Both the position numbers and the translations under genes were made by a program. A stretch of 64,000 bases of DNA, from positions 9,417,001 through 9,481,000 of the forward strand of contig NZ_CP107783.1 of the NCBI RefSeq assembly GCF_036345255.1, given 5' to 3'. Positions 1,256 to 26,821 of the stretch are shown in pieces (position 1 is the stretch's first letter; every line of letters begins with the position of its first letter). This DNA is from Streptomyces sp. NBC_00569. Lineage in GTDB: Bacteria; Actinomycetota; Actinomycetes; Streptomycetales; Streptomycetaceae. The notes beneath the pieces were generated by a model. The model worked only from the letters and a program-made list of their open reading frames with translations. It did not search any database and was not told the origin of the DNA.

Positions 1256-2377
1256 ATGCCTGAGAACGCCTCGTCTCCCCGTACGCCGCCGTGGTTCGCG
1301 CGGCCCGGCTCCCGCGCGTGGAGATGCGCAGCCGCTCCCGCCGAAGTGCGGGAATTCCATGCCGCGCTGGCCGACTACGCACCCACACCACTCACAGAAC
1401 TCCCGCTCCTGGCAAGCGAGTTGCGTGTCGGGCGGGTCTTCGTCAAGGATGAGTCGTGCCGTCTCGGGCTCCCCGCGTTCAAGGCGCTGGGTGCTTCCTG
1501 GGCGGTCCACCGCACCCTTGCCGAGCGCGCCGCAAGCGGGAGCGCGTCGGGCCCGGTGACCCTGGTGACCGCCACCGACGGCAACCACGGACGGGCGGTG
1601 GCCCGCACGGCACGCCTGCTGGGGCAGCATGCCCGCGTCTTCGTACCGCAGGGTGTGCATCCGCAGGCCGTGGCGGCCATCGTCGCCGAGGGGGCGAAGG
1701 TCACCGAGGTCGCGGGGGCGTACGACGAGGCGGTGCGCCTCGCGGCCGAGGCGGCCGCCCCGGCGGACGCGGTTCTGGTCCAGGACACCGCCTGGCCGGG
1801 CTACGAGGAGATCCCGGGGTGGATCGTCGAGGGCTACTCCACCCTCTGTGCCGAGATCGACGAGCAGTTGGCGGCGGCAGGTGTCCTTGACGGCCCTGAC
1901 CTGGTCGCCGTACCGGTGGGAGTGGGGTCCCTCGCCCAGGCCGTGGTGACCCATTACCGCAGCCGGCCGTCCGGGCGGGCACCGGCGCTGCTGTCGGTGG
2001 AGCCGGAAGCTGCGGCGTGCGTCCTCGAGAGCCTCACCCGCGGTGAACCCGTCAGCGTCACCACGGGCGAAACGAGTATGGCGGGCCTGAACTGCGGCAC
2101 CCCGTCCGGCATCGCCTGGCCCTGTCTGCGGGACGGACTGGATGCCGCGGTCGCGGTCCCGGACGCCGACAGTGCCCGCGCGGCTGCCCGCCTTGCCGCT
2201 CTGGGCGTTTCCTCGGGCCCTTGCGGGGCCGCGTCGCTCGCCGGCGTCCACGCGGCCCTCTCCGGCGTGGGCGCCGGCGAACGCCGCTCGGTGCTGGGGC
2301 TCGGCCCGTCCTCGGTGGTCGTGCTGCTGAGTACCGAGGGCGCGGCCGCCAACCCGCACACCACCGCAGGTCACTGA
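1256..2377 (+). CDS. Diaminopropionate ammonia-lyase-like PLP enzyme
   Basis: A 373-residue fold-type II PLP enzyme. The motif KDESCRLGLPAFKALG, with K76 as the likely PLP lysine, is typical of diaminopropionate ammonia-lyase, which converts 2,3-diaminopropionate (either isomer in the E. coli enzyme) to pyruvate and ammonia. The TDGNHGRAVA segment and the glycine-rich GPCGAAS segment are the other cofactor-binding landmarks. The start at ATG 1256 gives the usual family length; in-frame starts upstream would run into the regulatory gap. A serine/threonine dehydratase is the alternative. It is followed by a LysE exporter, which suggests amino acid overflow or detoxification. Confidence 0.75.
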   Translation: MPENASSPRTPPWFARPGSRAWRCAAAPAEVREFHAALADYAPTPLTELPLLASELRVGRVFVKDESCRLGLPAFKALGASWAVHRTLAERAASGSASGPVTLVTATDGNHGRAVARTARLLGQHARVFVPQGVHPQAVAAIVAEGAKVTEVAGAYDEAVRLAAEAAAPADAVLVQDTAWPGYEEIPGWIVEGYSTLCAEIDEQLAAAGVLDGPDLVAVPVGVGSLAQAVVTHYRSRPSGRAPALLSVEPEAAACVLESLTRGEPVSVTTGETSMAGLNCGTPSGIAWPCLRDGLDAAVAVPDADSARAAARLAALGVSSGPCGAASLAGVHAALSGVGAGERRSVLGLGPSSVVVLLSTEGAAANPHTTAGH

Positions 2378-2467
2378 ACGCGTGAAGACGGAAGGACGAC
2401 CCGAGTTGAACCACCACACCTGCCTCACCCCACGTCAGCCCGGCCGGGGCGGAACGAGGACCGCGGC

Positions 2468-3115
2468 ATGCTGACCCATGTCGCAGCAGCGGTCGGTGTG
2501 CTCGGCCTGCTGACCGTCGTGCCCGGCCCGGACATGGCCGTGGTGACCCGGCGCGCTCTCTCGGCGGGGCCCGCGGACGCATTGCGGACCGTGGGCGGGA
2601 TCGCGACCGGGCTGCTGGTCTGGGGCGCGCTCACGATGGCCGGACTCGCCGCCGTGCTGGCCGCCTCGCCCTCGGCATACCTGACCGTCAAGCTCCTGGG
2701 CGCCGGCTACCTGGTGTTCCTGGGCGCGCAGGCACTGTGGCAGAACCGCCCCGCCGCGCCCGCCATCGCAACCCGTCCCGGCAGTACCGGGGCCCGGGGC
2801 AGTACCGGGGCCCGGCCCACGGGGAGCCCATGGCGGACGGGACTGGTCAGCAACGTCCTCAATCCGAAGATCGCCGTCTTCTACACCGGGCTGCTCCCCA
2901 CGCTGGCGCCGCCCCGACTTCCGGCAACCTTGGCCATGACGCTCCTCGTCCTCCTCCACGCCGCACTCACGCTCGCCTGGCTGGGCAGCTACGTGTTCCT
3001 GCTGTCCAAGGGCGAGCGGACCCTCGAGAAGCCGCGGATCCGCCGCGCTCTGGGGCGGACCACAGGCGTCGTGCTGATCGGCTTGGGCCTCGCGGTCGCG
3101 ACCGCCTCCGTCTGA
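2468..3115 (+). CDS. LysE/RhtB-family amino acid exporter
   Basis: A 215-residue membrane protein with about six hydrophobic helices. The N-terminus has the family signature (GLLTVVPGPDMAVVTRRAL), and the centre has GLVSNVLNPKIAVFYTGLLPTL, also typical of LysE/RhtB exporters. ATG 2468 follows GGAACGAGGA. It lies 90 bp after the PLP lyase on the same strand and is probably co-transcribed. It likely exports an amino acid. The loop before the NPK motif contains a perfect tandem duplication (2780-2815). Confidence 0.9.
   Translation: MLTHVAAAVGVLGLLTVVPGPDMAVVTRRALSAGPADALRTVGGIATGLLVWGALTMAGLAAVLAASPSAYLTVKLLGAGYLVFLGAQALWQNRPAAPAIATRPGSTGARGSTGARPTGSPWRTGLVSNVLNPKIAVFYTGLLPTLAPPRLPATLAMTLLVLLHAALTLAWLGSYVFLLSKGERTLEKPRIRRALGRTTGVVLIGLGLAVATASV
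2780..2815 (+). repeat. 18-bp tandem duplication inside the LysE gene
   Basis: Two perfect 18-bp copies (2780-2797 and 2798-2815) sit head to tail. Each encodes the same GSTGAR-type segment of a cytoplasmic loop. The duplication keeps the reading frame and probably arose by slipped replication. Confidence 0.9.
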
Positions 3116-3578: not shown

Positions 3579-5054
3579 GTGCAGACACTTTTGCGTGGCG
3601 GCCGTGTCATTGATCCGGGAACAGGGTTCGACGGCATCGCCGACGTCCTCGTGTCCGACGGCGTGGTCAGAGCTGTGGCCGCGGGGCTCGACGCGCCACC
3701 GGGATGCGAGGTCGTCGACGTCACGGGGTTGGTCGTCGGTCCGGGGTTCGTCGACCTGCACAGCCACGTGCACTCCGTCGCGGGGCAGCGGCTGCAGGCC
3801 ATGGACGGTGTGACGACGGCCCTCGACCTGGAGTCGGGCCTCATGCCCATCGGGCGTGCGTACGCCGAGGCCGCCGCGGACGGACGCCCGCTGCACTACG
3901 GCTTTTCCGCCTCGTGGGGCGGTGCCCGGGCCCAGGTGCTCGCCGGCATCCAGCCCGACGCACAGATCGGGAGCGGCCTCGCGGTGCTGGGAAACCCCGC
4001 ATGGCAGCGCTCCTCCACCGATCGTGAACTCGCCGAATGGCTGGCCCTGATCGAGGGTGAACTGGCCGCAGGAGCGCTCGGTATCGGAGTCCTCCTCGGG
4101 TACGCGCCGCACAGTGATCCGGCCGAGTTCCTCGCCGTCGCCCGGCTCGCCGCGAAGGCCGGTGTGCCGACGTACACCCACGTCCGTGAGCTGGTCGAGG
4201 TGGATCCCGGCACTCCGGCGGACGGCTCCGAGGAGATCGTCATCGCCGCGGCCGAGACCGGCGCCGCGATGCACCACTGCCACGTCAACAGCACGTCGGG
4301 CCACCACATCGACCGGGTACTCGGCGCGTTGGACGGCTCACGGCGGTCGGGATCCCGGGTGACGGTCGAGGCCTACCCCTACGGAGCGGGCAGCACCGCG
4401 ATCGGCGCGGCCTTCCTCGACGCCGAACGCCTGCGGATGAAGGGCCTGTCCCCGTCGAGCGTCGTGATGCTCGAATCGGGCGAACGCATCGCCGACGAGG
4501 GGCGCCTGCGGCAGTTGCGCAACAGTGACCCCGGGGCGCCCTGCATTCTGGAGTTCCTCGACGAGGGCAACTCGCGCGATCTCGCGATGCTGCACCAGGC
4601 GCTGGCCTTCCCGGACGCGATCGTCGCCAGTGACGCGATGCCGGTCTATTGGCCCGACGGCAGCAACGACAGCACCGAGTGGCCGCTGCCGCCCGGGGGA
4701 ACGACGCACCCACGCACCGCGGGAACGTTCACCAAGACGCTGCGCGTGATGGTGCGGGAGAGCGGCGCCTGGGACTGGCCGGAGGCGTTCCGACGCTGTG
4801 CCCACCTGCCGGCGCGCGTCCTCGACGACGTGGCGCCGGGCGCGCGGGGGAAGGGACACCTCGGCGTCGGCGCGGACGCCGACATCGTCGTCCTCGACCC
4901 GGTGACGATCACCGATTGCGCGACGTACTTCGACTCCACGCGGCCGTCCGTGGGCGTGCGGCACCTGTTCGTCGGTGGTGTTCCGGTGGTCAGCGCGGGG
5001 GAGCTTCAAGTCGACGCGCTCGCCGGACAGCCGCTGCGAGGTGAGCCGCGATGA
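3579..5054 (+). CDS. N-acyl-D-amino acid deacylase (D-aminoacylase) family amidohydrolase
   Basis: A 491-residue amidohydrolase. It has the N-terminal beta-sandwich start (GGRVIDPGTGFDGIADVLV), the metal motif DLHSH (H61, H63), further conserved histidines in THVREL and HHCHVNS, and SDAMP supplying the catalytic aspartate. EAYPYGAGSTAI and HPRTAGTF...GHLGVGADADIVVLDP are hallmarks of the D-aminoacylase group, which frees D-amino acids from N-acyl-D-amino acids. The GTG start at 3579 follows GACGAGGAGACG. The stop overlaps the next ATG (ATGA), so translation is coupled to the M20 gene. Exact acyl and side-chain preference cannot be read from sequence. Confidence 0.85.
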   Translation: MQTLLRGGRVIDPGTGFDGIADVLVSDGVVRAVAAGLDAPPGCEVVDVTGLVVGPGFVDLHSHVHSVAGQRLQAMDGVTTALDLESGLMPIGRAYAEAAADGRPLHYGFSASWGGARAQVLAGIQPDAQIGSGLAVLGNPAWQRSSTDRELAEWLALIEGELAAGALGIGVLLGYAPHSDPAEFLAVARLAAKAGVPTYTHVRELVEVDPGTPADGSEEIVIAAAETGAAMHHCHVNSTSGHHIDRVLGALDGSRRSGSRVTVEAYPYGAGSTAIGAAFLDAERLRMKGLSPSSVVMLESGERIADEGRLRQLRNSDPGAPCILEFLDEGNSRDLAMLHQALAFPDAIVASDAMPVYWPDGSNDSTEWPLPPGGTTHPRTAGTFTKTLRVMVRESGAWDWPEAFRRCAHLPARVLDDVAPGARGKGHLGVGADADIVVLDPVTITDCATYFDSTRPSVGVRHLFVGGVPVVSAGELQVDALAGQPLRGEPR

Positions 5055-6163
5055 CGGCGACGCGTTCCGAGGTGACAGTGGAGGCGCTCCTCGCCGACAT
5101 CGAGACCCTGGTGCGGTGCGAGTCGCCGTCCTCCGATCACGAAGCCGTCGCCCGCAGCGCAGACGTCGTGGCGACGCTGGGGCGCAGGCTGCTGGACGCG
5201 GAACCGGACCGCGTGGTGATCGACGGGTGTACGCATCTGAGGTGGCGCTTCGGCGAGGCGCCGCGTGTGCTGCTGCTCGGGCACCACGACACCGTGTGGC
5301 CCGCCGGATCGCTGGAGACGCACCCGTACTCCGTCCTGGACGGAGTGCTGCGCGGGCCGGGCTGCTTCGACATGAAGGCGGGCGTCGTGATGGCGCTGCA
5401 CGCCGCCGCGGCCGCCGGGAACCGCTCGGGTCTTTCGGTCCTCGTCACCGGCGACGAGGAGATCGGCTCCCCGTCGTCGCGGCGCCTGATCGAGGAGGAG
5501 GCTCGCGGCTGCGAAGCGGTCTTCGTGCTGGAGGCGTCGGCCGACGGCGGAGCGCTCAAGTGCCGCCGCAAGGGCGTCTCCCTGTACCGGATCGACGTGG
5601 ACGGCCGGGCCGCGCACGCCGGGCTCGAACCGGAGAAGGGTGTGAACGCCGGAGTGGAGGTGGCGCACCAGGTCCTCGCCGTCGCCGCACTCGCCGACGC
5701 CGAACGGGGTACGACCGTCGTGCCGACGGCCCTGTCCGCCGGTACCACGACCAACACCGTTCCCGCGCGTGCCGGTGTGGCGGTCGACGTACGTGTGTGG
5801 GACGAAGCGGAACAGCGGCGGGTCGATCAGGCCGTGCGGGACCTGAGGCCCGTACTCGACGGCTCGCGGATCCGGATCTCGGGTGGCATCAACCGCCCGC
5901 CGCTGCAGGCGGACGCGTCCTCGGGGCTGTTCGACCTCGCCGCGACGCTCGCTGCCGAACTCGGTCTCGGACATCTCACCGCCGCCGCTGTCGGCGGTGC
6001 CTCGGACGGGAACTTCACCGCCGGACTCGGGGTCCCCACCCTCGACGGCCTCGGTGCCGTGGGCGGCGGTGCGCACGCCGACGACGAACACGTCGTCGTC
6101 GCCGAACTGCCGCGGCGCACCGCCCTGTTGACCGCCCTGATCGACGCCGTGTCGGCGAAATGA
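5051..6163 (+). CDS. M20-family deacylase, probable N-succinyl-L-amino acid hydrolase
   Basis: A 370-residue M20 metallopeptidase of the carboxypeptidase G2/ArgE type. Metal ligands are visible in LLLGHHDTVWP, GPGCFDMKAG and the catalytic pair TGDEEIGS, with GRAAHAG in the dimerisation insert. ATG 5051 overlaps the D-aminoacylase stop by four bases. Its position beside a COG3375-type GNAT and an N-acylamino acid racemase matches the gene set in which the M20 enzyme removes succinate from N-succinyl-L-amino acids. That substrate is inferred from context; a glutamate carboxypeptidase or acetylornithine deacetylase-like role is the alternative. No signal peptide is present, so it is cytoplasmic. 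Confidence 0.85.
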   Translation: MTATRSEVTVEALLADIETLVRCESPSSDHEAVARSADVVATLGRRLLDAEPDRVVIDGCTHLRWRFGEAPRVLLLGHHDTVWPAGSLETHPYSVLDGVLRGPGCFDMKAGVVMALHAAAAAGNRSGLSVLVTGDEEIGSPSSRRLIEEEARGCEAVFVLEASADGGALKCRRKGVSLYRIDVDGRAAHAGLEPEKGVNAGVEVAHQVLAVAALADAERGTTVVPTALSAGTTTNTVPARAGVAVDVRVWDEAEQRRVDQAVRDLRPVLDGSRIRISGGINRPPLQADASSGLFDLAATLAAELGLGHLTAAAVGGASDGNFTAGLGVPTLDGLGAVGGGAHADDEHVVVAELPRRTALLTALIDAVSAK

Positions 6164-6248: not shown

Positions 6249-7145
6249 GTGACCGATCTTGCGACACATGAGTCAGCTCTGGTTTCCCCGGCTGTGAGCG
6301 CAGCCGCGCTGGCCGCCGCGACCGCTGCGGCTGCCGCCTCACGTGTGGAAATCCGGGACCTGACCGAGGTGTCCGACCTGACCGAGGTCTGCCGGCTCTT
6401 CGCCTCGATCTGGCAGCCGGGCGCCGGTGCCCAACCGGTGACGACCGAGCTGCTGCGGGCGATGGCCGCGGCGGGGAACTATGTCGCGGGGGCGTATGAA
6501 GGGGACGAGCTTCTGGGAGCCTGCCTCGGCTTCTTCGGCAGCCCGGCCAAGGCGAGCCTGCACAGTCACATCGCCGGGGTCGCGCCGCGAGGCCTCGGCA
6601 GGGGCATCGGGTTCGCCCTCAAACTGCACCAGCGCGCCTGGGCGTTGCGCCAGCACGTCTCGCTGATCACCTGGACGTTCGATCCCCTGGTCCGGCGGAA
6701 CGCGCATTTCAACCTGGCCAAGCTCGGCGCCGGTCCGGCGCGCTACCTCCCCGACTTCTACGGGCCGATGCGCGACGGCATCAACGGCGCCGGTGACACC
6801 GACCGGCTGATGGTCCGTTGGGACCTGTCAGGCCCGGCGGCCTCCGCCGCCTCGCGCGGTGAGCCCGCCCGCGTCGACGTCGCCGCGCTGCGGGAGCACG
6901 GTGCGGGAGCCGCCCTGTCCGTCGCACCTGACGGGGGCCCGCGGACCGCAGTGGCCGACGTGCCGGTCGTCCTGGTCGGTGTGCCGCCGGACATCGAGAC
7001 ACTCCGGCGCACGGACCCGGGCCGGGGCCAGGCGTGGCGCGTCGCGCTTCGGGAGGTGTTGGGAGGCCTGATGGCGGAGGAAGCCAGGGTCGTCGGATTC
7101 GATCGTGCCGGATGGTACGTGGTCTCGAGGGAGAAGCCGTCATGA
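6249..7145 (+). CDS. GNAT acyltransferase (COG3375 type), probable D-amino acid N-succinyltransferase
   Basis: A 298-residue protein starting at GTG 6249 behind GGAAAGGA. The segments LHSHIAGVAPRGLGRGIGFALKLHQRAWAL, WTFDPLVRRNAHFNLAKLGAGPARYL and FYGPMRDGINGAGDTDRL are characteristic of the predicted acetyltransferase group COG3375. Members next to N-succinylamino acid racemases act as D-amino acid N-succinyltransferases in the D-to-L conversion pathway described in Geobacillus. The gene overlaps the racemase start (ATGA). The first 25 residues are an alanine-rich tail, and an 18-bp tandem duplication (6357-6392) repeats DLTEV. Confidence 0.8.
   Translation: MTDLATHESALVSPAVSAAALAAATAAAAASRVEIRDLTEVSDLTEVCRLFASIWQPGAGAQPVTTELLRAMAAAGNYVAGAYEGDELLGACLGFFGSPAKASLHSHIAGVAPRGLGRGIGFALKLHQRAWALRQHVSLITWTFDPLVRRNAHFNLAKLGAGPARYLPDFYGPMRDGINGAGDTDRLMVRWDLSGPAASAASRGEPARVDVAALREHGAGAALSVAPDGGPRTAVADVPVVLVGVPPDIETLRRTDPGRGQAWRVALREVLGGLMAEEARVVGFDRAGWYVVSREKPS
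6357..6392 (+). repeat. 18-bp imperfect tandem duplication in the GNAT gene
   Basis: Two head-to-tail units, 6357-6374 and 6375-6392, encode DLTEVS and DLTEVC near the N-terminus. The units differ only at their last bases and keep the frame. Confidence 0.8.
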
Positions 7146-8248
7146 AGCCCAGTGGTGTGGAACTTCTGCGTGTGCAGATACCGTTGGTGGCACCGTTCCG
7201 GACGTCGTTCGGTACGCAGGACGTACGGGAACTGCTGCTCGTACGCGTCGTGACGCCGAACGGCGAGGGCTGGGGCGAGTGCGTCACCATGGGAGGGCCG
7301 CTCTACTCCTCGGAATACGTCGACGGTGCCGAACACGTGCTGCGGAACTTCCTGGTCCCGGCCCTGTTGGAGGCGGGCGAGATCACCGCGAGCCGGGTCG
7401 CGCCCCTTCTGGCCAGGTTCAAGGGTCACCGGATGGCGAAGGCCGCGCTCGAAATGGCCGTGCTCGACGCCGAACTGCGAGCACACGACCGGTCCTTCGC
7501 CGCCGCGCTCGGGTCCGCACGGGACTCCGTTCCGTGCGGGGTCTCGGTCGGCATCATGGACTCCGTCCCCCAACTCCTTGATGTGGTGGGCGGCTATCTC
7601 GACGCCGGCTATGTGCGGATCAAGCTGAAGATCGAACCCGGTTGGGACGTCGAGCCGGTGCGAGCGGTGAGGGAGCGTTTCGGCGACGACGTGCTGCTGC
7701 AGGTCGACGCCAACACGGCGTACACCCTGTCCGACGTGTCCCAGCTGGCCCGTCTGGACCCCTTCGAGCTCCTCCTCATCGAGCAGCCTCTGGACGAGGA
7801 GGACCTCCTGGGCCACGCCGAGCTGTCCCGTCGCATCCGCACGCCGGTCTGCCTCGACGAGTCGATCGTGTCCGCCCGCTCCGCTGCCGACGCGATCACG
7901 CTCGGCGCCTGCCGCATCGTGAACATCAAGCCCGGCCGGGTCGGCGGGTACCTCGAGGCGCGGCGGGTGCACGACGTCTGCGCCGCCCATGGGATCCCCG
8001 TGTGGTGCGGCGGCATGATCGAGACCGGGCTCGGCCGGGCGGCCAACGTCGCGCTCGCCTCGCTGCCCGGGTTCACCCTGCCCGGAGACACCTCGGCGTC
8101 GGACCGGTTCTACCGGACCGACATCACCGAACCGTTCGTCCTGAAGGACGGACACCTGCCGGTACCCCAGGGGCCGGGCCTCGGTGTCACGCCGATTCCC
8201 GACCTGCTGGCGGAGGTCACGACCTCGAAGGTGTGGCTCGGTTCGTAG
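7142..8248 (+). CDS. N-acylamino acid racemase / o-succinylbenzoate synthase-like enolase-superfamily enzyme
   Basis: A 368-residue enolase-superfamily protein close to NSAR/OSBS. The catalytic set is complete: K161 and K163 in IKLKIEPG, metal ligands D189 (VDANTAY), E214 (IEQPLDEEDL) and D239 (CLDESI), and K263 in VNIKPGRVGGYLEA. The segment WCGGMIETGLGRAANVALASLPGFTLPGDTSAS is diagnostic of this branch. It interconverts N-succinyl-D- and N-succinyl-L-amino acids by proton exchange at the alpha carbon. OSBS activity for menaquinone is possible, but no men genes are nearby, while the GNAT and M20 genes are. The ATG overlaps the GNAT stop. Confidence 0.88.
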   Translation: MKPSGVELLRVQIPLVAPFRTSFGTQDVRELLLVRVVTPNGEGWGECVTMGGPLYSSEYVDGAEHVLRNFLVPALLEAGEITASRVAPLLARFKGHRMAKAALEMAVLDAELRAHDRSFAAALGSARDSVPCGVSVGIMDSVPQLLDVVGGYLDAGYVRIKLKIEPGWDVEPVRAVRERFGDDVLLQVDANTAYTLSDVSQLARLDPFELLLIEQPLDEEDLLGHAELSRRIRTPVCLDESIVSARSAADAITLGACRIVNIKPGRVGGYLEARRVHDVCAAHGIPVWCGGMIETGLGRAANVALASLPGFTLPGDTSASDRFYRTDITEPFVLKDGHLPVPQGPGLGVTPIPDLLAEVTTSKVWLGS

Positions 8249-8324: not shown

Positions 8325-9980
8325 GTGCTGACACCGACGTCCGGCAAGCCACACACAAGCCTGGCGCGCGTCCTCGACGACCTCGGGGACGTGCTGCTGG
8401 AGTCGATCGCGGGCGGCGGGAGCACGCGCCGGCAACTGAGCGGCGTAGTCATCCACGACCCGCTCGACGAGGCGCAGTTCCCGGCGCGGGCCGTCGTCCT
8501 GGGTGTGGGCGTCCACGAACCGGACGACGTGGTCCGCCTCCTGTACGACCTCGGCAGCAAGGGCGCGGCAGCGCTCGTCGTCCGGTCACCGTTCACCGCG
8601 ACCGTGGAGATCCGGCGGGCCGCCGACGAGTCCGGCGTCGCCCTGCTCGGACTCACCCGCGGAGCCTCCTGGGCGCAGGTCGCCGCCATGCTCCGCACCC
8701 TGCTCGTCGAGGGAGACATCGGCGACATCTCACCGCAGACGCTGGGCGGCATGCCGTCGGGCGACCTGTTCGCGCTGGCCAACGCCGTGGCCGCGCTCCT
8801 GGACGCGCCGGTCACCATCGAGGACCGCAGCTCACGCGTGCTCGCCTTCTCCGGCCGCCAGGACGAGGCGGACCAGTCCCGCGTGGAGACGATCCTGGGG
8901 CGCCAGGTACCGGAACGGTTCACCCTCGACCTGGCGCGCAACGGCGTCTTCGAGCGACTTCATCGCGGCCATGCGCCCGTGTACGTCGATCCGCTCCACG
9001 ACGAGTCGATGACCGTTCCCCGGGTGGCGCTCGCGGTGCGGGCCGGCGACGAGATCCTCGGCTCGATCTGGGCCGCGGTGCCCGGGCCCCTGTCCCAGGA
9101 GCGGACGCAGGCGCTGATCGACGCCGGCAAGCTCGTCGCGCTCCACATGTTGCGCCTGCGCGCGGGCGCCGATGTCGAACGCAGGCTGCGCGCCGACCTG
9201 GTGAGCACCGCGCTGGAAGGCGGCACCGGGGCACCGGAGGCGATTGCGCGGCTCGGGCTCGTGGGACAGCCCGCGATCGTGCTCGCCCTGGGGCTTTTCG
9301 GCGGATCGGAAGCCGATCCGTCGACGGAGGACGGTCTGCGCCGGGTCGCGGACCGCCAGCGCGTCGCCGACGCGCTGGCCATGCATCTGAGCGCGGTCCA
9401 GGCGCGCTCGGCCGTGGCGCTGGTGGGCGACGTGGCCTACGGCATCGTGCCGATGCCGGGGAGCCAGACGGACTGCCGGGAGCGTTCGGTCCGCGTCGCG
9501 TCGACCTTCCTCGAGCGCACCGGGCAGCGCGTGGACGCGGCGATCGGCATCGGCCCGCCCGCTCCCGACGGCTCCGTGCTCAGCCGCTCGCGTGACGGCG
9601 CGGACCGCGCGCTGCGGGTGCTGCTCGCCAACGGGGGCGCCCGGCGCGTGGCCACGGCGGAGGAGGTCCACGTCGACGCACTCATGCTCGACCTCGCCGA
9701 CCTGGCCGCCGCGCGCGGGGACGTGGCGACCGGCCCCGTCGCCCGCCTGCTCGACTACGACGCCCGGCACCAGTCGCAGCTCGTCCACACGCTCTCGTGC
9801 TGGCTGGACGCCTTCGGCGACGTCGCCGCCGCTTCCGCCGCGGCGTACGTGCACCCCAACACCTTCCGGTACCGGCTGCGACGGGTCGCGGAGGTCGGTG
9901 AGATCAATCTGGACGACCCCGGCGAGCGGTTCGCGGCGATGCTGCAACTCCGGCTCCACCCTGCTCGCCACCGCGAGTAG
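8325..9980 (+). CDS. PucR-family transcriptional regulator
   Basis: A 551-residue regulator with an N-terminal PucR-like ligand domain, a central region and a C-terminal helix-turn-helix (AAYVHPNTFRYRLRRVAEVGEINL). The chosen GTG at 8325 gives a protein that aligns end to end with the 549-residue paralogue at 23769-25418, including shared blocks such as ALLDAPVTIEDRSSRVLAFSGRQDEADQSR. No clear Shine-Dalgarno precedes it, so a leaderless transcript is possible. It follows the racemase by 76 bp and probably senses an amino acid or peptide to control this catabolic island. Confidence 0.88.
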   Translation: MLTPTSGKPHTSLARVLDDLGDVLLESIAGGGSTRRQLSGVVIHDPLDEAQFPARAVVLGVGVHEPDDVVRLLYDLGSKGAAALVVRSPFTATVEIRRAADESGVALLGLTRGASWAQVAAMLRTLLVEGDIGDISPQTLGGMPSGDLFALANAVAALLDAPVTIEDRSSRVLAFSGRQDEADQSRVETILGRQVPERFTLDLARNGVFERLHRGHAPVYVDPLHDESMTVPRVALAVRAGDEILGSIWAAVPGPLSQERTQALIDAGKLVALHMLRLRAGADVERRLRADLVSTALEGGTGAPEAIARLGLVGQPAIVLALGLFGGSEADPSTEDGLRRVADRQRVADALAMHLSAVQARSAVALVGDVAYGIVPMPGSQTDCRERSVRVASTFLERTGQRVDAAIGIGPPAPDGSVLSRSRDGADRALRVLLANGGARRVATAEEVHVDALMLDLADLAAARGDVATGPVARLLDYDARHQSQLVHTLSCWLDAFGDVAAASAAAYVHPNTFRYRLRRVAEVGEINLDDPGERFAAMLQLRLHPARHRE

Positions 9981-10120: not shown

Positions 10121-11413
10121 ATGACGGCGGTGATCACCGAGGACACCTGGACACCGAAGCGGGTCAACCGGACGGCAACGATCACGATGGTGGTCATGCT
10201 GTGCGCCTGGTCGATCGACTACATCGACCGCTTCTCGATCAGCATGGCTCTGCCGTCGATCGGAGAGGAGTTCCAACTCGGCAAGACGGCACAGGGCTCG
10301 CTCGTCACCGTCTTCGCGCTGGTCTACATGATCTGCCAGATACCCGCGGGTTTCCTGGCCGATCGGTACGGCTCCCGCGGACCGATGCTGATCACGCTCG
10401 TGCTGTGGTCGCTGTTCACCGCGCTGACCGGGATGGCCGGCACATTCGGTCTGCTCCTGCTGTTCCGCGGTCTGTTCGGTGCCTGTCAGGGTGCATTCCC
10501 GGCGGCGTCGTTCAAAGCCATAGCGGAACGGACGACACCGGCGAGACGGGGGACCGCCACGAGCGTGATGCTGTCCGCCAGCGGGATCGCCGGCCTCGCG
10601 CCCCTGCTCGTCGCCCCGCTGCTGACGGGCATCGGCTGGCGGCACACCTTCCTCTGGATGGCGGGTTGCGGCGCGGCCATCGGCATCGGGTTGTGGGCGC
10701 TTCTGCCCAAGGCACTGCCGGACCGGCTGAGCCGGCTTCCGCAGACGACGGCGACGACGCCCGCAGTCTCGCGCGCACAAGTACTCAGGTCCCCGGCGGT
10801 GTGGAAGTTCGCGGTGCTGTTCTGCGCGATGAACATGCTCAGCTACGGCCTGGTCACCTGGGTGCCCAGCTATCTGCTCGAGGCCAGACACCTGTCGCTG
10901 AACGAGACCGGGTTGCTGTCGGCGATCCCGAGTCTGGTGGGCTTCGCGACGACCATCTTCGGCGGCTGGCTGTTCGACCGGTACTTCCATGACAAGGCCA
11001 GGTGGTACCTGGTGTCCATCGCGACGGTGACCGCGGTCCTGCTCGTTCTGATGGTGTCGGCGGGCAGCGCGGCGACGTTCACTCTCTACGAGACCTTGGC
11101 CGTCGGAGTGTTCGGGATGGCGACGATGTGCGTCTTCGGCCTTCCGCTGCGGGTGCTTCCCACGGCGGTGGCCGGCCTCGGCTCCGGAATGACGAACTTC
11201 GGCGGCCAGGTCGCCGGCGTGATCGCGCCGCTGGCGATGGGCTGGCTGGCGGACGCGTTCTCCTACACCGCCGCGTTCGGCTTCCTGATCTGCACCACGC
11301 TGCTCACCGCGGTGATCGCGTTCTGGGTCCCGCAGCGAGCCGAACAGTTCAACTTCCCGTCGGCCGGCACCACGGAGTCTGCCGGCGCCAAGGAGTCGAC
11401 CGGCACCAAGTAG
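10121..11413 (+). CDS. MFS transporter, anion:cation symporter-like
   Basis: A 430-residue carrier with about 12 hydrophobic helices. The MFS loop motif is seen as GFLADRYGSRGPML after helix 2, and DYIDRFSISMALPSIGEEF at helix 1 is typical of the ACS subfamily that imports organic anions and acylated compounds. ATG 10121 is preceded directly by GGAGGTAGCC, a strong ribosome site, so the longer in-frame start at 10040 is unlikely. In this cluster it could import N-acyl amino acids or small peptides; the substrate is inferred. Confidence 0.88.
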   Translation: MTAVITEDTWTPKRVNRTATITMVVMLCAWSIDYIDRFSISMALPSIGEEFQLGKTAQGSLVTVFALVYMICQIPAGFLADRYGSRGPMLITLVLWSLFTALTGMAGTFGLLLLFRGLFGACQGAFPAASFKAIAERTTPARRGTATSVMLSASGIAGLAPLLVAPLLTGIGWRHTFLWMAGCGAAIGIGLWALLPKALPDRLSRLPQTTATTPAVSRAQVLRSPAVWKFAVLFCAMNMLSYGLVTWVPSYLLEARHLSLNETGLLSAIPSLVGFATTIFGGWLFDRYFHDKARWYLVSIATVTAVLLVLMVSAGSAATFTLYETLAVGVFGMATMCVFGLPLRVLPTAVAGLGSGMTNFGGQVAGVIAPLAMGWLADAFSYTAAFGFLICTTLLTAVIAFWVPQRAEQFNFPSAGTTESAGAKESTGTK

Positions 11414-11482: not shown

Positions 11483-12376
11483 ATGGTCACCGAATCGGAA
11501 CTGGTCGAGGCAATCACCGGGCGGGCGGCGGAAGCCGGCGTCCAGGTATGGCTGCACGCGGCCGATCTGGACAGCCCGCGACACGTGGGCATCGACGCCG
11601 ACGAGCCGGTGGTCACCGCGTCCGTGTTCAAGGTTCCCGTAGCAGTGGAACTTGCCCGGCAGGCGGCCGAAGGTGAACTCGACCTCGCCGAGCGGATCAC
11701 GGTGCCACCGGGACATCCGACCGCCAGTCCGTACGGCCTCGCGACGTTCCGCCACGACGTCACGATGTCCTGGTACGACCTCGCCGTCCTGATGATCGGC
11801 ATCAGCGACAACGTCGCCACGGACCTGATCCTCGGGAAGGTGGGAAAGGCCGCGGTCGCCGGGACGCTGCGCCGGCTCGACCTCCCGCACACAGCCGTCC
11901 CCCACGACTGCGGGGACCTGTTGCGCACGATCGGCGAGGACCTCGGGATCGACTACCAGGACGACGAACGGATCCTGGCCGCGATGCCGGCCGAACAACT
12001 GGCCAAGCTGCGCGCGTTGACACCCGAAGAGACCTGCCGGACCACCGCCGCGGAGAGCACCCGCCTGCTGGGCCTGATCTGGCGTGACGAAGCGGCACCC
12101 GCGACGGCGTGCGCCGACGTCCGGCGCTGGCTGGAACTGCAGGTGTGGCCGCACCGGCTGCGCTCCGGCTTCGCGGACGACGACGTCAGGATCAGCGGCA
12201 AGACCGGCACGCTGCCCTCGCTGCGCAACGAGATCGGCGTGGTGGAGTACCCGGACGGTGGCCGGTACGCGGTCGGCGTCTTCACCAGGGCCGTCGACGC
12301 CCGTTCGAGAGTTCCCGAGCGTGACGCCTTCATCGGTTTCGCCGCCGCCCGGGCGGTGGACTGGCTCAGGCGGTAA
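11483..12376 (+). CDS. Cytoplasmic class A beta-lactamase-like serine hydrolase
   Basis: A 297-residue protein with the class A landmarks SVFK (S47, K50), SDN (108-110) and KTG (240-242). The usual omega-loop motif ExxLN is missing; a glutamate at 171 in EQLAKL lies roughly where the deacylating Glu would be. There is no signal peptide, twin-arginine motif or lipobox, so it stays in the cytoplasm, unlike resistance beta-lactamases. A close paralogue lies at 13905-14804. It may cleave a peptide, amide or lactam bond in a D-amino-acid compound brought in by the nearby transporters; this role is inferred. Confidence 0.8.
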   Translation: MVTESELVEAITGRAAEAGVQVWLHAADLDSPRHVGIDADEPVVTASVFKVPVAVELARQAAEGELDLAERITVPPGHPTASPYGLATFRHDVTMSWYDLAVLMIGISDNVATDLILGKVGKAAVAGTLRRLDLPHTAVPHDCGDLLRTIGEDLGIDYQDDERILAAMPAEQLAKLRALTPEETCRTTAAESTRLLGLIWRDEAAPATACADVRRWLELQVWPHRLRSGFADDDVRISGKTGTLPSLRNEIGVVEYPDGGRYAVGVFTRAVDARSRVPERDAFIGFAAARAVDWLRR

Positions 12377-16390: not shown

Positions 16391-17382
16391 TGGCCACCGC
16401 TGCGGTGGCGGCCGCCTCGCGTGCCGGAATCCGGGGCGGCCCATGGCTGCAGTTCGCCCGGCGCAGGCTGCGGCGATTCCTCGTCGCGCTGTGGGTGCTG
16501 GTGACCACGGCATTCCTGATGATCCACCTCGTCCCGGGTGACCCGGTCCGGGCGGCGCTGGGAATGACCGCACCCACCGAGCTGGTCGAGGCCCGGCGCC
16601 AGGCGCTCGGCCTGAACGACCCGCTGTGGGTGCAGTACGGCCACTATCTGGGCAGCCTGTTCACCGGCGACTTCGGTACCTCGATGACCAGCAACCTGCC
16701 GGTGTCGCAAGTCATCGGTGACCGTCTGCCCGCGACGCTCGCGCTGGCCGTGCCCGCGTTCGTGGTGGTGGTCGCCCTGGCGATTCCCCTCGGCGTGCTG
16801 TTCGCGGTACTGACCAGAGGCGGCAGACGCCGGGGCGTCGAGCTGGGATTCACCTCGGTGAGCGTGTTCCTGGCCGCCGTCCCGGAGTTCCTGGTCGCGG
16901 TGGGCCTCGTCGCGTTCTACGCCGTGCGCCTTGGCTGGTTCCCGGTAGCCGGGAACGGCGGCGCGAGCGCGTTCGTGCTGCCGGTGACGGCACTGGCGAC
17001 CGGTGCGACGGCGGTGCTGGCGCGGATCGTACGGGTGGAGATGCTGTCCGTGCTCGGCGACGACTTCGTCCGCACCGCCCGGGCGAAACGGCTGCCCGCC
17101 CGGCTCGTGTACGTCCGGCACGCGCTGCCGAGCGCGCTGACCGCCACGCTGACGCTGGGCGGGCTGATGCTCACGGCGATGGTCGCGGGGACGGTGCTCG
17201 TGGAGAACGTCTTCGCCTGGCCCGGGCTCGGTTCGACGATCGTGCAGTCGATTCTGGCGAAGGACTATCCGACGGTGCAGGGCATCGTGCTCGTGTACGG
17301 CATGGGGGTGCTGCTGGTGAACCTGGCGGTCGACGTGCTGCTGGCGGTGCTCGACCCGCGCTCGACGATCCGGGAGAGCTGA
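16390..17382 (+). CDS. Dipeptide ABC transporter permease (DppB type)
   Basis: A 330-residue inner-membrane permease with about six helices. It shows the DppB pattern: MIHLVPGDPVRAALG near the first helix, LPATLALAVPAF, and the EAA-like loop DDFVRTARAKRLPARLVYVRHALPSAL that contacts the ATPase, then VLVENVFAWPGLG. ATG 16390 overlaps the lipoprotein stop (ATGA), and its stop overlaps the next start. Confidence 0.92.
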   Translation: MATAAVAAASRAGIRGGPWLQFARRRLRRFLVALWVLVTTAFLMIHLVPGDPVRAALGMTAPTELVEARRQALGLNDPLWVQYGHYLGSLFTGDFGTSMTSNLPVSQVIGDRLPATLALAVPAFVVVVALAIPLGVLFAVLTRGGRRRGVELGFTSVSVFLAAVPEFLVAVGLVAFYAVRLGWFPVAGNGGASAFVLPVTALATGATAVLARIVRVEMLSVLGDDFVRTARAKRLPARLVYVRHALPSALTATLTLGGLMLTAMVAGTVLVENVFAWPGLGSTIVQSILAKDYPTVQGIVLVYGMGVLLVNLAVDVLLAVLDPRSTIRES

Positions 17383-19313
17383 TGACGTCGACATGGCAGT
17401 GGAGAAGGCGCGGCTCGGCCTGGTCGGCGGCGCTGCGCACCCCGGTGGGGGCGTGCTCCGTGGCGCTGTTGGTGGCGTTGGCCGCACTCGCCGTCCTGGG
17501 ACCGGTGCTGTGGGGCGGGCAGGCGGCCGCGGTCGACACGAACGCGATCGGCCAAGGTCCGTCCGGGGCACACCTGTTGGGTACCGACTCGCTCGGCCGG
17601 GACATCTTCTACCGCACGCTCGTGGCCACCCGGTTCTCGGTCGAACTCGCGGTGATCGCCACGGCGGTCGGCGTCACGGTCGGCCTCGTGCTGGGTACCT
17701 TGCCGTCGGTGCTGCCGCGCCGGGCCGGCAGGCTGATCACCTCCGCCGTGGACATCGCGGTGGCGTTCCCCGGGCTGCTCCTTGCGTTGTTCTTCGCGGT
17801 CGTCTTCGGCGTGGGCACCCGAGGCGCGGTCCTCGCCATCGCGTTCGCGACGGCGCCGGGCTTCGCGAGGCTGGCGCAGACACTCGCCGCGTCGGTGTCG
17901 GGGCGGGACTACGTATCGGCTGCGCGGATCGCGGGCGTCGGCCGGCTCCGGCTGCTCGTCCGGCACGTCCTGCCCAACATCGGCGAGCCGCTGCTGGTGA
18001 ACGCCACCATCAGCGCGGGCGGGGCACTGCTCGCGTTCGCCTCGCTCTCCTTCCTCGGCATCGGCGTCCAGGCACCCCGATACGACTGGGGGCGGCTCCT
18101 CGGCGAGGGACTGGACGGGATCTACGTGAACCCGGCGGCCGCGCTCGCTCCCGGCGCGGCGGTGGTGCTGGCCGGTCTTGCGTTCAACCTGGTGGGCGAG
18201 ACCGTCGCCGCGGTGATCGGCGTACGCACCCCGACCGCGCGGATCCCCGCCCGGCCGGCGCCGCCCGCCCGTCCCGCCGCGGCAGCGGAACCCGGCGTGG
18301 AACCGGTGCTGTTGGTGGAGAACCTCCAGGTGGCGTTCCCGCGTCCGGACGGGTGGACGGTCCCGGTACGCGGGGTGAGTTTCACCGTGCGGGGCGGCGA
18401 GGCGATCGGCGTGGTGGGGGAGTCCGGGTCGGGCAAGAGCCTGACCGCGCTGGCGGTTTCCCGGCTGATAGAGACGCCGGGTGTGGTGACCGCGGACCGG
18501 CTGGAATTCGCGGGGACTCCGCTCCTGACGACTCCGGAGCGGGAGTTGCGCCGGTTGCTCGGCACGTCGCTGGCGATGGTCTTCCAGGATCCGATGAGCT
18601 CGTTCAACCCGGCCCGGCGGATCGGCCGCCAGCTGGCGGAGGCGTCGGAGCAGCACCACGGCCTCAACCGGCGCGAAGCCTTCGCCAGAGCAGTGGACCG
18701 GTTGCGCGCGGTGCGCATTCCCGCCGCGGAACGACGTGCCCGGCAGTACCCGCACGAGTTCTCCGGCGGGATGCGGCAGCGCGCGATGATCGGCATGGGT
18801 CTGATGGGCGAGCCGAAGCTGATCATCGCCGATGAGCCGACGACGGCGCTGGATGTCACCGTGCAGCGCCAGGTACTGCGCCTTCTCTCGCGGACCAGAG
18901 AGAGCGAGAACGCTGCGATCCTCCTGATCAGCCACGACATCACGGTCGTCGCGCAGACCTGCGACCGGATGCTCGTCATGTACGCGGGGCGCGTCGTCGA
19001 GGACCTTCCCACCGCCGACCTCACATCCGTACCGAGACATCCCTACACCCGGGCGTTGCTGGCCGCGACGCTGGAACTGGACACCGACCGCGACGAGCCG
19101 CTGGCCGTGATCCCCGGCCGGCCGCCCGAGCCGGACCACGTGCCCGAGGGGTGCGCGTTCGCCGCCCGCTGCCCGGCGGCGACGGACCGGTGCCGGAGCC
19201 AGGACCCGGTACTGGAGCGGGTCGACTGGGCGCACCGGGTCGCCTGCTGGCATCCGAACGGCGCCGTCACGCCGGAGTCCGGCCGGGAAGCCGTCTACGG
19301 AGGTGCCGAATGA
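17382..19313 (+). CDS. Fused DppC-type permease and DppD-type ATPase
   Basis: A 643-residue fusion. Residues about 1-285 form a DppC-like permease (HLLGTDSLGRDIFYRTL, then the coupling loop GRDYVSAARIAGVGRLRLLVRHVLPN). After a short proline/alanine linker (PARPAPPARPAAAAEP), residues about 305-640 form a DppD-like ATPase: Walker A GESGSGKS, Q-loop QDPMSSFNP, signature FSGGMRQR, Walker B LIIADEP, H-loop SHD, and the cysteine-containing C-terminal domain (CAFAARCPAATDRC) common in peptide transporters. No internal stop or start signal separates the halves. Overlaps on both sides show tight coupling. Confidence 0.92.
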   Translation: MTSTWQWRRRGSAWSAALRTPVGACSVALLVALAALAVLGPVLWGGQAAAVDTNAIGQGPSGAHLLGTDSLGRDIFYRTLVATRFSVELAVIATAVGVTVGLVLGTLPSVLPRRAGRLITSAVDIAVAFPGLLLALFFAVVFGVGTRGAVLAIAFATAPGFARLAQTLAASVSGRDYVSAARIAGVGRLRLLVRHVLPNIGEPLLVNATISAGGALLAFASLSFLGIGVQAPRYDWGRLLGEGLDGIYVNPAAALAPGAAVVLAGLAFNLVGETVAAVIGVRTPTARIPARPAPPARPAAAAEPGVEPVLLVENLQVAFPRPDGWTVPVRGVSFTVRGGEAIGVVGESGSGKSLTALAVSRLIETPGVVTADRLEFAGTPLLTTPERELRRLLGTSLAMVFQDPMSSFNPARRIGRQLAEASEQHHGLNRREAFARAVDRLRAVRIPAAERRARQYPHEFSGGMRQRAMIGMGLMGEPKLIIADEPTTALDVTVQRQVLRLLSRTRESENAAILLISHDITVVAQTCDRMLVMYAGRVVEDLPTADLTSVPRHPYTRALLAATLELDTDRDEPLAVIPGRPPEPDHVPEGCAFAARCPAATDRCRSQDPVLERVDWAHRVACWHPNGAVTPESGREAVYGGAE

Positions 19314-20308
19314 GCGCGCTGGTGTTCGACGACGTGAGCGTGCGCTACGGCGCCCGGCGCGGCGGCCTGACCGCCGTGGACCAGGTCAGCCTGACCGTGC
19401 CCAAGGGACAGGTGGTCGGGCTGGTCGGGGAGTCGGGATCGGGCAAGTCGACCCTGGCACGGGCCGCGGTGGGCCTTGCACCGGTGAGCGCGGGCCGCGT
19501 CCTGCTCGGCGGCGTGGACGTGAAGAGCCTGCCACGAAGACGGCCGCTGCAGATGGTGTTCCAGGACCCGTACTCCTCGCTGGATCCGCGGATGAGCATC
19601 GGTGAGTCGATCACCGAGGCCCTGCCGCGCGGTGCCCGCGAGGGCGGCGCGGGCCGGCGGGCCGAGGTGGCGAGACTGCTCGAACTGGTCAACCTCGACC
19701 CGGACCGGGCGGGGATGCTGCCGAAGCACCTGTCGGGCGGGCAGCGGCAACGTGTCGCGCTCGCCCGCGCGTTGGCCGGGCAGCCGCAGGTACTGATCGC
19801 CGACGAGATCACGTCCGCGCTCGACGTGTCGGTGCAGGGCGCCGTACTTAATCTGGTCCGCACACTGCAGCGACGACTGGACCTGTCGATGCTGTTCATC
19901 TCGCACAACCTGGCCGTGGTGCGCTACCTCAGCGACGTGATCGCCGTCATGTACCTCGGCCGCATCGTGGAGACGGGCCCCGCCGCGCAAGTCCTCGACG
20001 ACCCGCAACACCCCTACACGCGCGACCTGCTCGCCGCGGCCCCGTCCGCCCGCACCGGCCTGTTCGACGGCCCCGGTGACGGCGACGGCATCGGCGACAC
20101 GGACCCGCCGGACCCACACCACCCGCCCACCGGCTGCCGCTACCACCCCCGCTGCCCGATCGGCCCGCTCACGCACACCGAGCGCACCGTCTGCCTCAGC
20201 TCCGACCCGGCCGACGCCGCGGCGACCCGCCGGCACCGAGCGGCCTGCCACTTCTCCCCGAGCGTCAGCGAACAGCCCGCAATCCCACGAGGAGGCCTCC
20301 TGCGATGA
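19310..20308 (+). CDS. Peptide ABC transporter ATPase (DppF type)
   Basis: A 332-residue ATPase: Walker A GESGSGKST, Q-loop QDPYSSLDPRM, signature LSGGQRQR, Walker B LIADEITSALD (the usual ADEPTSALD has Pro replaced by Ile), SHN in place of the usual SHD, and a C-terminal oligopeptide domain with CRYHPRCP. It is the second ATPase of the peptide importer. ATG 19310 overlaps the fusion stop, and its own stop overlaps the next ATG. Confidence 0.92.
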   Translation: MSALVFDDVSVRYGARRGGLTAVDQVSLTVPKGQVVGLVGESGSGKSTLARAAVGLAPVSAGRVLLGGVDVKSLPRRRPLQMVFQDPYSSLDPRMSIGESITEALPRGAREGGAGRRAEVARLLELVNLDPDRAGMLPKHLSGGQRQRVALARALAGQPQVLIADEITSALDVSVQGAVLNLVRTLQRRLDLSMLFISHNLAVVRYLSDVIAVMYLGRIVETGPAAQVLDDPQHPYTRDLLAAAPSARTGLFDGPGDGDGIGDTDPPDPHHPPTGCRYHPRCPIGPLTHTERTVCLSSDPADAAATRRHRAACHFSPSVSEQPAIPRGGLLR

Positions 20309-23741: not shown

Positions 23742-23768
23742 GCGCGGACGCCCTGGGAGGAGGTGAAC

Positions 23769-25418: not shown

Positions 25419-25663
25419 CGCAACCGTTCAGCTAGGTCGGTGAGCGGGAAGAGCGGGCATTCGACGAACCCCTCCCTCAGCCTATCCCGCATCGGTTCGC
25501 ACTTCTGAACAAAGTCAGCGGGTGAAACTGGTACGGAATGACGATGCATTTCCCGATGGCGTTCATGAGAATTGCCGTCGGAGTTTCGATGTGACCGAAC
25601 CCCGGCGGTATTCGCCGAGGCCCGGACGCACGCGGGACAGTGCATTGATCTCAAGGAATCCTC

Positions 25664-26821
25664 GTGTTCTCAGCCGCATACCCCCAGCTGCGCCTCGACG
25701 CCGACGCCGTCGACCACAACATTCGCGTCATGGCCGCCTGGTGCAGGTCCCGAGATGTGGAACTCGCCCCCCACGTCAAAACGACGATGTCCGCACCCGT
25801 CATCGAGCGACAGCTCGCCGCGGGCGCCGCAGGTGTCACGGTCGCCACGGTGGACCAAGCGCAGACGATCTTGAGCTGGGGTCACGGCTCGGTACTCATC
25901 GCCAACCAGGTCGTGGACCGTTTCGGGTTGCGGCGTCTTAAGTCCTTGCTGGACGAGGATCCGGCCAGAGAGATCCGATGCTTCGTCGACTCGCCGCAAG
26001 GCGTCATCGCGGCGGAGCAGATCTTCACCGGGCACGGGCCGGCCCTCGAGGTTCTTCTCGACGTCGGAACGCCTGGCGGGCGGACAGGGATCCGCAATCC
26101 CGAGGACGCACGACAGCTGGCAAGGCTGGTCAGCAGGGCGCCAGGCCTCAGTCTGGCCGGAGTGGCCGGATACGAAGGCGTCGCCTCCAACACCCGGAAC
26201 GACGACACGATCGCAGCGGTCGACGAACACTGCCGCCGGGTGCGCGATGTCTATCTCGACGTCGCCGACCTCTTCGAGACCGAGGCCCCTGTGTACTCGA
26301 TGGGAGGTTCGGCTTTCCCTGATCGAGTCGTCGAGTTCCTGCCCACCGCGAACGACGTCCCCGGCACCGTGCGGCTTCTTCGGTCCGGTTGCTACGTGAC
26401 CCACGATCACGGCACCTACCAGCGGGTGAGTCCCCTTCCGCAGCTCGTTCCGGCCGTGTCGGTCCGAGCCGTCGTCCTGTCCGTTCCCGAGACCGGGACG
26501 GCCGTCGTCGGAGCCGGAAAGCGCGACCTGCCCTACGACGCCGACCTGCCGGTACTTCTCTCGGCCCACAGTCCCGGCGGATCTCCCAGGCGCGACCTCT
26601 CCGGGCACGTCCGCAGTCTGTACGACCACCACGCCGTCCTCACCGGAGTGACCGGCCTCGAGGTCGCCGACCTGGTCGATGTCGGAATCTCACACCCCTG
26701 CTCCGCCTTCGACCGCTGGCCCGACTACTTCGTCACCGACAAGGCGGGCGAGGTGATCGACGTGTGGCAGACCGATTTCCGTCGAGCCTCGATCGCCGGC
26801 ACCGGTCGGTCCCGCGGCTGA
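25664..26821 (+). CDS. D-serine dehydratase / D-threonine aldolase-like PLP enzyme
   Basis: A 385-residue fold-type III (alanine racemase-like) enzyme. K39 in PHVKTTMSAP is the PLP lysine. EVLLDVGTPGGRTGI and AGVAGYEGVASN are barrel segments. The C-terminal D-serine dehydratase-like domain carries the metal pair H344 and C346 in SHPCSAFDRW. The family acts on D-amino acids (D-serine, D-threonine or D-3-hydroxyaspartate). GTG 25664 follows AAGGAAT. It is divergent from a PucR gene and followed by a broken M20 gene. Its presence supports a D-amino acid theme for the whole island. Confidence 0.85.
   Translation: MFSAAYPQLRLDADAVDHNIRVMAAWCRSRDVELAPHVKTTMSAPVIERQLAAGAAGVTVATVDQAQTILSWGHGSVLIANQVVDRFGLRRLKSLLDEDPAREIRCFVDSPQGVIAAEQIFTGHGPALEVLLDVGTPGGRTGIRNPEDARQLARLVSRAPGLSLAGVAGYEGVASNTRNDDTIAAVDEHCRRVRDVYLDVADLFETEAPVYSMGGSAFPDRVVEFLPTANDVPGTVRLLRSGCYVTHDHGTYQRVSPLPQLVPAVSVRAVVLSVPETGTAVVGAGKRDLPYDADLPVLLSAHSPGGSPRRDLSGHVRSLYDHHAVLTGVTGLEVADLVDVGISHPCSAFDRWPDYFVTDKAGEVIDVWQTDFRRASIAGTGRSRG

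Follow-up and report, generated by a model that had tools for sequence, protein, structure and literature searches.

We analysed a 64,000-nucleotide stretch of DNA from Streptomyces sp. NBC_00569 (hereafter the window; positions 9417001-9481000 of NZ_CP107783.1, part of a single 10.32-Mb contig, G+C 70%) and detected in it a gene island, at window positions 3579-23661, that runs from an amidohydrolase to a fusion of an S9 peptidase with a class C-like serine hydrolase. This block of about fourteen genes is conserved across soil actinobacteria. Based on the observed gene order, conservation, catalytic residues and localisation signals, we propose that it is probably a D-peptide catabolic island, which would mediate peptide import, cleavage and the conversion of D- to L-amino acids. 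A single island for the uptake and breakdown of D-amino-acid peptides had been put forward in an earlier reading of the same DNA (the original prediction), and the conserved co-occurrence reported below supports it well. The GNAT, racemase and M20 genes had already been listed there; their joint match to a D-to-L pathway is recognised here.

Gene content and proposed pathway

Gene calls and Pfam/NCBIfam profile searches (Table 1) recovered all genes named in the original prediction. The stop-to-start arrangement claimed for 13905-23661 was also found, with overlaps of 1-4 bp at 13905/13908, 14801/14804, 16390, 17382, 19310/19313 and 20305/20308; further overlaps of this size occur at 5051/5054 and at 7142/7145, where the end of the GNAT gene and the start of the racemase gene share 4 bp. 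The set of genes is real, and its layout resembles that of an operon.

The M20, GNAT and racemase genes are all adjacent (5051-8248). The racemase scores 313.4 bits against TIGR01928 (cut-off 200.65), the N-succinylamino acid racemase/o-succinylbenzoate synthase (NSAR/OSBS) subfamily of the enolase superfamily, and its start at 7142 was placed by alignment to residue 1 of PDB 1SJA. Residues K171, K173, D199, E224, D249, K273 and R276 are kept in at least 98% of 45 sequences, and they include the KxK lysine and the second lysine; D199, E224 and D249 are presumably the metal ligands. Two lysine bases are part of the racemase mechanism according to a passage of PMC8142540. The gene at 6249-7145 remains under the Pfam cut-off (PF00583, 16.8 bits against 20.7) and two of its relatives pass a GNAT cut-off; judging from its AlphaFold model, which has a predicted local distance difference test score (pLDDT) of 91.6, a C-terminal extension and GNAT structures as best structural matches, it is of the GNAT fold.

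A GNAT gene adjoins 90 of 91 racemase genes in two locus sets (71/71 and 19/20), a count uncorrected for kinship that includes the damaged copy of locus L098. The 71 cases come from 118 loci, two overlapping loci excluded, and in each of them the GNAT is encoded on the same strand no more than 300 bp away; M20 lies within 2.5 kb of the racemase in 54 of them. What seemed to be a fusion of GNAT and racemase in Arthrobacter sp. 35W (L098) was rejected: compared with the intact L101 pair, it is a damaged copy with the frame shifted over a stretch of about 100 residues.

Twenty Streptomyces racemase loci without the fusion gene were examined for variants, and several nested arrangements were observed: amidohydrolase-M20-GNAT-NSAR-PucR (L142, L143), M19-M20-GNAT-NSAR (L148, L149, L150, L156, L158) and PucR-S12-class A-class A-importer-M19-M20-GNAT-NSAR (L145, L146). 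Besides, the island queries detected neither M20 nor peptide genes next to GNAT-NSAR in L144, L151, L152, L154 and L157, and in L153 the pair has a divergent M20 close by. The M19 dipeptidase of these variants (Pfam, 279.5 bits) has as its closest solved structure 3id7, which we take to be Sco3058; Sco3058-like enzymes hydrolyse L-D dipeptides. The best argument for a GNAT acting on D-amino acids is that a single core recurs with several different enzymes that could release such amino acids. In another clade (L151 10772-11560, L153 8607-9392, L154 8973-9761), a small protein with a weak match to the Lon C-terminal domain adjoins the GNAT-racemase pair.

Among the hydrolases, the amidohydrolase has N-acyl-D-glutamate deacylase 3gip (81 bits) and D-aminoacylase 1rjq (68 bits) as its closest solved structures. 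In the fusion, S511, D592 and H624 of the S9 half and S723, K726, Y815, N817 and H963 are kept in at least 98% of 83 sequences. S65, K68, Y157, N159, H307 and G309 are conserved among 66 members of the BLC family, and S47, K50, S108, D109 and N110 among 67 members of the class A-fold family, in which the KTG motif is kept as well (K 65/67, T 65/67, G 66/67). On the basis of their motifs, we take the conserved residues listed for the racemase, fusion, BLC and class A-fold families to be catalytic. No export signal was detected in any hydrolase of the window by a simple hydrophobicity measure, in line with what had been predicted for the beta-lactamase-fold proteins; in relatives, the threshold is exceeded by 4 of the 67 class A-fold proteins and by none in the remaining hydrolase families.

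Two other arrangements of the S9 and S12-like domains were noted. In a second island of genome G149, a 106-residue S9 remnant (L121 11276-11593, minus strand) adjoins an S12-like gene and looks like an S9 half that was lost. In two Arthrobacter (L097, L101; minus strand, ~16-22 kb), the main island has as its neighbour another S9-S12 fusion, diverged to 49% identity, with a racemase and GNAT of its own.

The importer (14801-20308) comprises the set of the Opp/Dpp type, that is, a family 5 binding lipoprotein, two permeases and two ATPases of the ATP-binding cassette (ABC) kind, and the binding protein starts at GTG 14801 with RRR, a hydrophobic stretch and a lipobox cysteine. At L122 the conserved fusion, M20, GNAT and racemase go together with a peptide importer that differs clearly (OppF 39%, OppB 34% identity), and the island transporter seems to be exchangeable.

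Considering these genes together, we infer the substrates and every enzymatic step of a theoretical route, as well as its acyl donor, direction and regulation. The lipoprotein-dependent importer would take up short peptides with D-residues. Three kinds of enzyme would cut them in the cytoplasm: the S9 part of the fusion, the class A-fold serine hydrolases and the S12-like serine hydrolases, the last probably at D-residues. The amidohydrolase would release D-amino acids from N-acyl-D-amino acids, and D-aminoacylase-like, S12-like and sometimes M19 neighbours could free D-residues from the imported peptides. The GNAT would N-acylate the free D-amino acid, probably by succinylation, the racemase would interconvert the N-acyl-D and N-acyl-L forms, and the M20 enzyme would hydrolyse the L form only, so that the flow would be drawn to L-amino acids; PucR1 probably regulates the island. 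Together, GNAT, racemase and M20 correspond to a D-to-L amino acid pathway known from the literature. The NSAR pathway of Sakai et al. 2006 is reported to convert D- to L-amino acids irreversibly. That work is listed, with D-to-L conversion in its title, among the references of PMC8762209.

Recurrence of the gene set across Actinomycetota

Species genomes were scanned with the fusion protein, and the best 80 of 200 confirmed matches were used, with identity thresholds of our own choice, flanks of up to 10 kb and strains not collapsed. The 80 loci come from Streptomyces, Amycolatopsis, Kribbella, Lentzea, Kutzneria, Catellatospora, Microbacterium, Arthrobacter and others, and the occurrence of each gene is given in Table 1; in addition, an M19 dipeptidase was found in 9 loci and LysR in 1. 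The gene order is rearranged among relatives: Kribbella, Lentzea and Microbacterium mostly have the M20-GNAT-NSAR-PucR block on the downstream side of the fusion, the window and most Amycolatopsis on the upstream side. The occurrence of the same gene set in other genera is more than chance. According to the original prediction, related clusters from which the greater part of the genes is missing would speak against a coherent island; for the core, the outcome of this test was in favour of the island. The extent given to the island holds for the core at 3579-23661 and not for its edges: at the chosen thresholds, 0/80 loci contain PucR2, the D-serine-dehydratase-like gene or DLH, and LysE and LysR occur in 0/19 stretches that reach ~3 kb upstream of the amidohydrolase. 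LysE and LysR lie beyond the flank in loci of the window type, so that the absence of LysE from the 80 loci is no test of linkage.

In 62 of the 80 loci a racemase gene is found no more than 14 kb away from the fusion gene, 45 times in the locus itself and 17 times further out. For the 35 loci without an in-locus racemase, 33 source genomes were searched, 30 of them with a match; in the 17 loci the racemase stands 11.2-13.3 kb from the fusion start, in stretches that all hold the amidohydrolase, GNAT, racemase and PucR1, and in 16 cases also M20. The two genes are likewise associated within Streptomyces, where, of 246 genomes, 9 carry the fusion and 2 more have its halves as adjacent genes: a racemase match (E 1e-100 or better) was found in 11/11 of these versus 58/235 of the others (hypergeometric probability ~5e-7, kinship ignored). 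Both split cases (G019, G075) have the order binding protein, OppB, OppC-D, OppF, S9, S12-like, M20, GNAT, NSAR and PucR, one of them with a class A-fold gene ahead of PucR, which is the order expected if neighbouring S9 and S12-like genes were later joined. On the other hand, 12 of 20 Streptomyces stretches around matches hold a lone relative of the C-terminal half of the fusion and no island, and this domain alone is therefore no island marker.

Table 1. Features of the island and its borders in the window, with the number of the 80 fusion loci in which each gene was found.
Feature	Window position	Strand	Evidence or remark	Loci of 80
Amidohydrolase, D-aminoacylase/N-acyl-D-glutamate deacylase-like	3579..5054	+	NF006560 642 bits, cut-off 340	8
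M20 metallo-hydrolase, candidate N-acyl-L-amino acid deacylase	5051..6163	+	PF01546, PF07687	41
GNAT-fold acyltransferase, candidate D-amino acid N-succinyltransferase	6249..7145	+	PF00583 sub-cut-off and AlphaFold model	45
NSAR/OSBS-type N-acylamino acid racemase	7142..8248	+	TIGR01928	45
PucR1, PucR-type regulator, conserved with island	8325..9980	+	PF13556	44
MFS transporter, in a subset of islands	10121..11413	+	PF07690	15
BLA_1, class A-fold serine hydrolase	11483..12376	+	PF13354 170.6 bits; SxxK, SDN, KTG	21
BLC_1, class C/S12-fold serine hydrolase	12511..13908	+	PF00144 235 bits	61
BLA_2, class A-fold serine hydrolase	13905..14804	+	PF13354 174.7 bits	44
Lipoprotein solute-binding protein, family 5 (peptide type)	14801..16390	+	PF00496 163.5 bits	65
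Peptide ABC permease (OppB-like)	16390..17382	+	PF00528, PF19300	65
Permease-ATPase fusion (OppC-OppD-like)	17382..19313	+	PF00528, PF00005, PF08352	65
Peptide ABC ATPase (OppF-like)	19310..20308	+	PF00005, PF08352	68
S9 peptidase fused to class C/S12-fold hydrolase, 1118 aa	20305..23661	+	PF00326 158.9 bits, PF00144 209.9 bits
Perfect 19-bp stem-loop	23698..23741	.	3' of last core gene (fusion), between convergent genes
PucR2, second PucR regulator	23769-25418	minus	Outside conserved island	0
D-serine-dehydratase-like gene	25664-26821		Outside conserved island	0

Competing explanations

Several observations weigh against the proposed pathway. The window M20 is nearest to carboxypeptidase G2 (112 bits, its closest solved structure) and not to a proven desuccinylase. 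One racemase, the second of A. oliviviridis (L177), has no GNAT beside it, and many racemase-GNAT pairs stand apart from importer and peptidases (e.g., L144, L151-L154, L157), from which it follows that the module also works without peptides. Besides, 18 of the 80 fusion loci lack a racemase link: 8 are short contigs, contig ends or outside the search (L041, L043, L048, L049, L055, L063, L067, L089), 7 have a racemase elsewhere or beside another copy (L056, L060, L068, L070, L074, L078, L080), and for the other 3 no racemase was found in the genome at E 1e-60 (L092, L102, L116).

The island might alternatively serve the recycling of muropeptides, its importer taking up peptidoglycan stem peptides and its enzymes recovering D-Ala and D-Glu. 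D-residues are present in stem peptides, the solved structure nearest to the amidohydrolase is an N-acyl-D-glutamate deacylase, and some S12-like relatives are D-Ala-D-Ala carboxypeptidases; yet no S66, NlpC/P60, amidase or L-Ala-D/L-Glu epimerase reached its cut-off among the core proteins. Muropeptides, one of the possible substrates in the original prediction, are thus not supported as the special substrate, and we consider this explanation unlikely. A second possibility is the catabolism of N-acyl-amino acids by amidohydrolase, racemase and M20, with the peptide genes secondary, as L142 and L143 would illustrate, where importer and peptidases are missing within the examined stretch. The formation of N-acyl-amino acids by the GNAT would be futile if these were the food, however, yet this gene accompanies nearly every racemase, and the peptide block recurs alongside the module, which makes such a specialisation decidedly unlikely in our view.

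The uptake and breakdown of beta-lactam antibiotics was also considered, given the four beta-lactamase-fold domains of the island. The model of BLA_2 (pLDDT 92.4) has S. cacaoi BlaB as its top structural match, followed by matches that include 4ewf and 6v4w (both named beta-lactamases), LRA-5 and PBP-A, and then by true class A beta-lactamases. Against the curated class A cut-off of 200, however, BLA_1 and BLA_2 reach 70.8 and 87.3 bits; neither has the N170 residue, and tested on this score together with the E166-x-x-L-N170 motif both fall outside the class A beta-lactamases. In the class A-fold family, a Glu lies near the place of E166 in 58/67 members, an equivalence that is uncertain, and the place of N170 is mostly K or A. 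The deposited variants LRA-5 V166E and PBP-A L158E suggest that the wild types of these proteins are without E166. In the class C-like domains of BLC_1 and the fusion, HDG replaces KTG, and their scores of 79.1 and 75.7 bits are far under the class C cut-off of 415. The class A-fold proteins of the island are probably not beta-lactamases, to judge from these motifs and scores. Taking into account the absence of export signals and of a clear role for the racemase-GNAT-M20 module in such a process, we regard lactams as very improbable substrates, contrary to what had been suggested.

The last alternative concerns the racemase itself, which might be an OSBS for menaquinone, with its position in the island incidental. 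The window racemase is 86.7% identical to 1SJA over 368 residues, and 1SJA is 98.4% and 97.3% identical to the island racemases of A. echigonensis (L169) and A. dendrobii (L172), respectively; we take its source to be Amycolatopsis. Structure 4A6G differs from 1SJA by G291D and F323Y, the changes of the engineered Amycolatopsis sp. enzyme in passages of PMC4823265 and PMC7431475, and this agreement bears out the Amycolatopsis origin. The island seems to be the natural home of this well-known laboratory racemase. In a passage of a review (PMC4215206), the biologically relevant function of the Amycolatopsis enzyme is stated to be actually OSBS, and the same view is taken in a passage of PMC4271523, which treats the racemase activity as promiscuous.

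Menaquinone genes were searched for in 38 genome handles (MenD, MqnC and a dedicated MenC) and in 11 more (MenD and MenC). MenD passed its cut-off in 22/38 and 9/11 handles and MenC in the same 22 and 9, while MqnC passed in exactly the remaining 16/38 and in 0/22 MenD genomes. Overall, MenD is accompanied by a separate MenC in 31 of 49 handles, and in the other 18 neither reaches its cut-off (MqnC in 16/16 of those tested); MenD without another MenC beside the island racemase was found in 0/49. Two handle pairs (G002/G285 and G161/G247) look like the same genome, the strain of origin of 1SJA is outside this sample, and the MenC match of G262 is interrupted by an internal stop. In the window genome MqnC is present, with MenD and MenC not over cut-off, and MenD as well as MenC is found in G261 and G265, the relatives closest to 1SJA. 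Since in the handles examined MenD always occurs together with a separate MenC, or neither is found at cut-off, an OSBS role of the island racemase is unlikely; with the nearly constant GNAT adjacency added, an OSBS placed in the island by accident is the least credible of the alternatives, being extremely improbable.

Surroundings of the island and relation to known systems

Downstream of the fusion, the region 23662-23768 with the stem-loop has a predicted fold of -73.5 kcal/mol (z -6.07), and a T tract is absent from the stem-loop. The intergenic regions, compared for a common operator, share two words of 10-11 bases, to which no chance level is attached. A simple promoter/terminator scan of 2300-22000 returned 0 and 4 sites versus 0.7 and 4.1 in shuffles, and Rfam and ARAGORN gave no match within the window. 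About 6 kb downstream of the island, a Glu/Leu/Phe/Val dehydrogenase (29793-31073, minus strand) could serve the onward use of L-amino acids.

Further genes on the minus strand of the window encode a 755-residue protein in which a polysaccharide deacetylase is joined to a family 2 glycosyltransferase (34737-37004), a multicopper oxidase like the o-aminophenol oxidase PhsA, with a score under the curated cut-off (45566-47467), and, apart from the island, another M20 adjoining an MFS transporter (48168-50960). Identical PF00144 matches at G000:C1:71083-71988 (minus) and 10252501-10253406 (plus) lie at mirror-image distances from the chromosome ends, and a terminal inverted repeat of at least ~72 kb is therefore indicated.

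Titles and abstract starts among the matches listed contained no literature on the island, part of which may already be covered in subscription papers. The novelty lies in how large the island is and which genes it comprises, in the S9-S12 fusion, in the wide occurrence among Actinomycetota and in the genomic setting of the Amycolatopsis enzyme. D-peptide catabolism would form a candidate pathway that is complete from import to L-amino acids and that might let actinobacteria of the soil exploit peptides with D-amino acids or disarm them. The conserved S9-S12 fusion predicts substrates of mixed chirality. We suggest tentatively that the fusion may strip L- and D-residues from imported mixed-chirality peptides (e.g., nonribosomal peptide antibiotics) and that the Amycolatopsis racemase may exist to convert the released D- to L-amino acids, and not for menaquinone, in a system widespread in actinobacteria; this wider proposal we hold to be possible rather than probable. 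It would give a candidate biological role to a classic case of enzyme promiscuity, the Amycolatopsis N-acylamino acid racemase/OSBS, and the genome context and menaquinone gene content speak against the OSBS assignment as worded in the passage of PMC4215206.

Several known systems resemble parts of the island. The ykf-dpp murein peptide operon of B. subtilis likewise combines a peptide importer, hydrolases and an enolase-superfamily enzyme, whereas the island core is without S66, NlpC/P60 and dipeptide epimerase at cut-off. The S12-like proteins are alike in fold and in the SxxK, YxN and HxG motifs to S12 D-aminopeptidase, D-amino acid amidase, alkaline D-peptidase and the R61 DD-peptidase, but they are distant from these in sequence and one island copy is fused to an S9 peptidase. 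BlaB, LRA-5 and PBP-A are the best or near-best structural matches of BLA_2, at 21-26% identity, and the class A-fold proteins of the island differ from them also in being without export signals. The Amycolatopsis racemase/OSBS (1SJA, 4A6G), near-identical to the island racemases of two Amycolatopsis, has so far been studied as an isolated enzyme, without genomic context in the passages of the papers devoted to it. Finally, the NSAR pathway of Sakai et al. 2006 is reported to combine GNAT, NSAR and M20 genes by the same logic, whereas here the module sits inside a large island for peptide import and hydrolysis together with PucR1.

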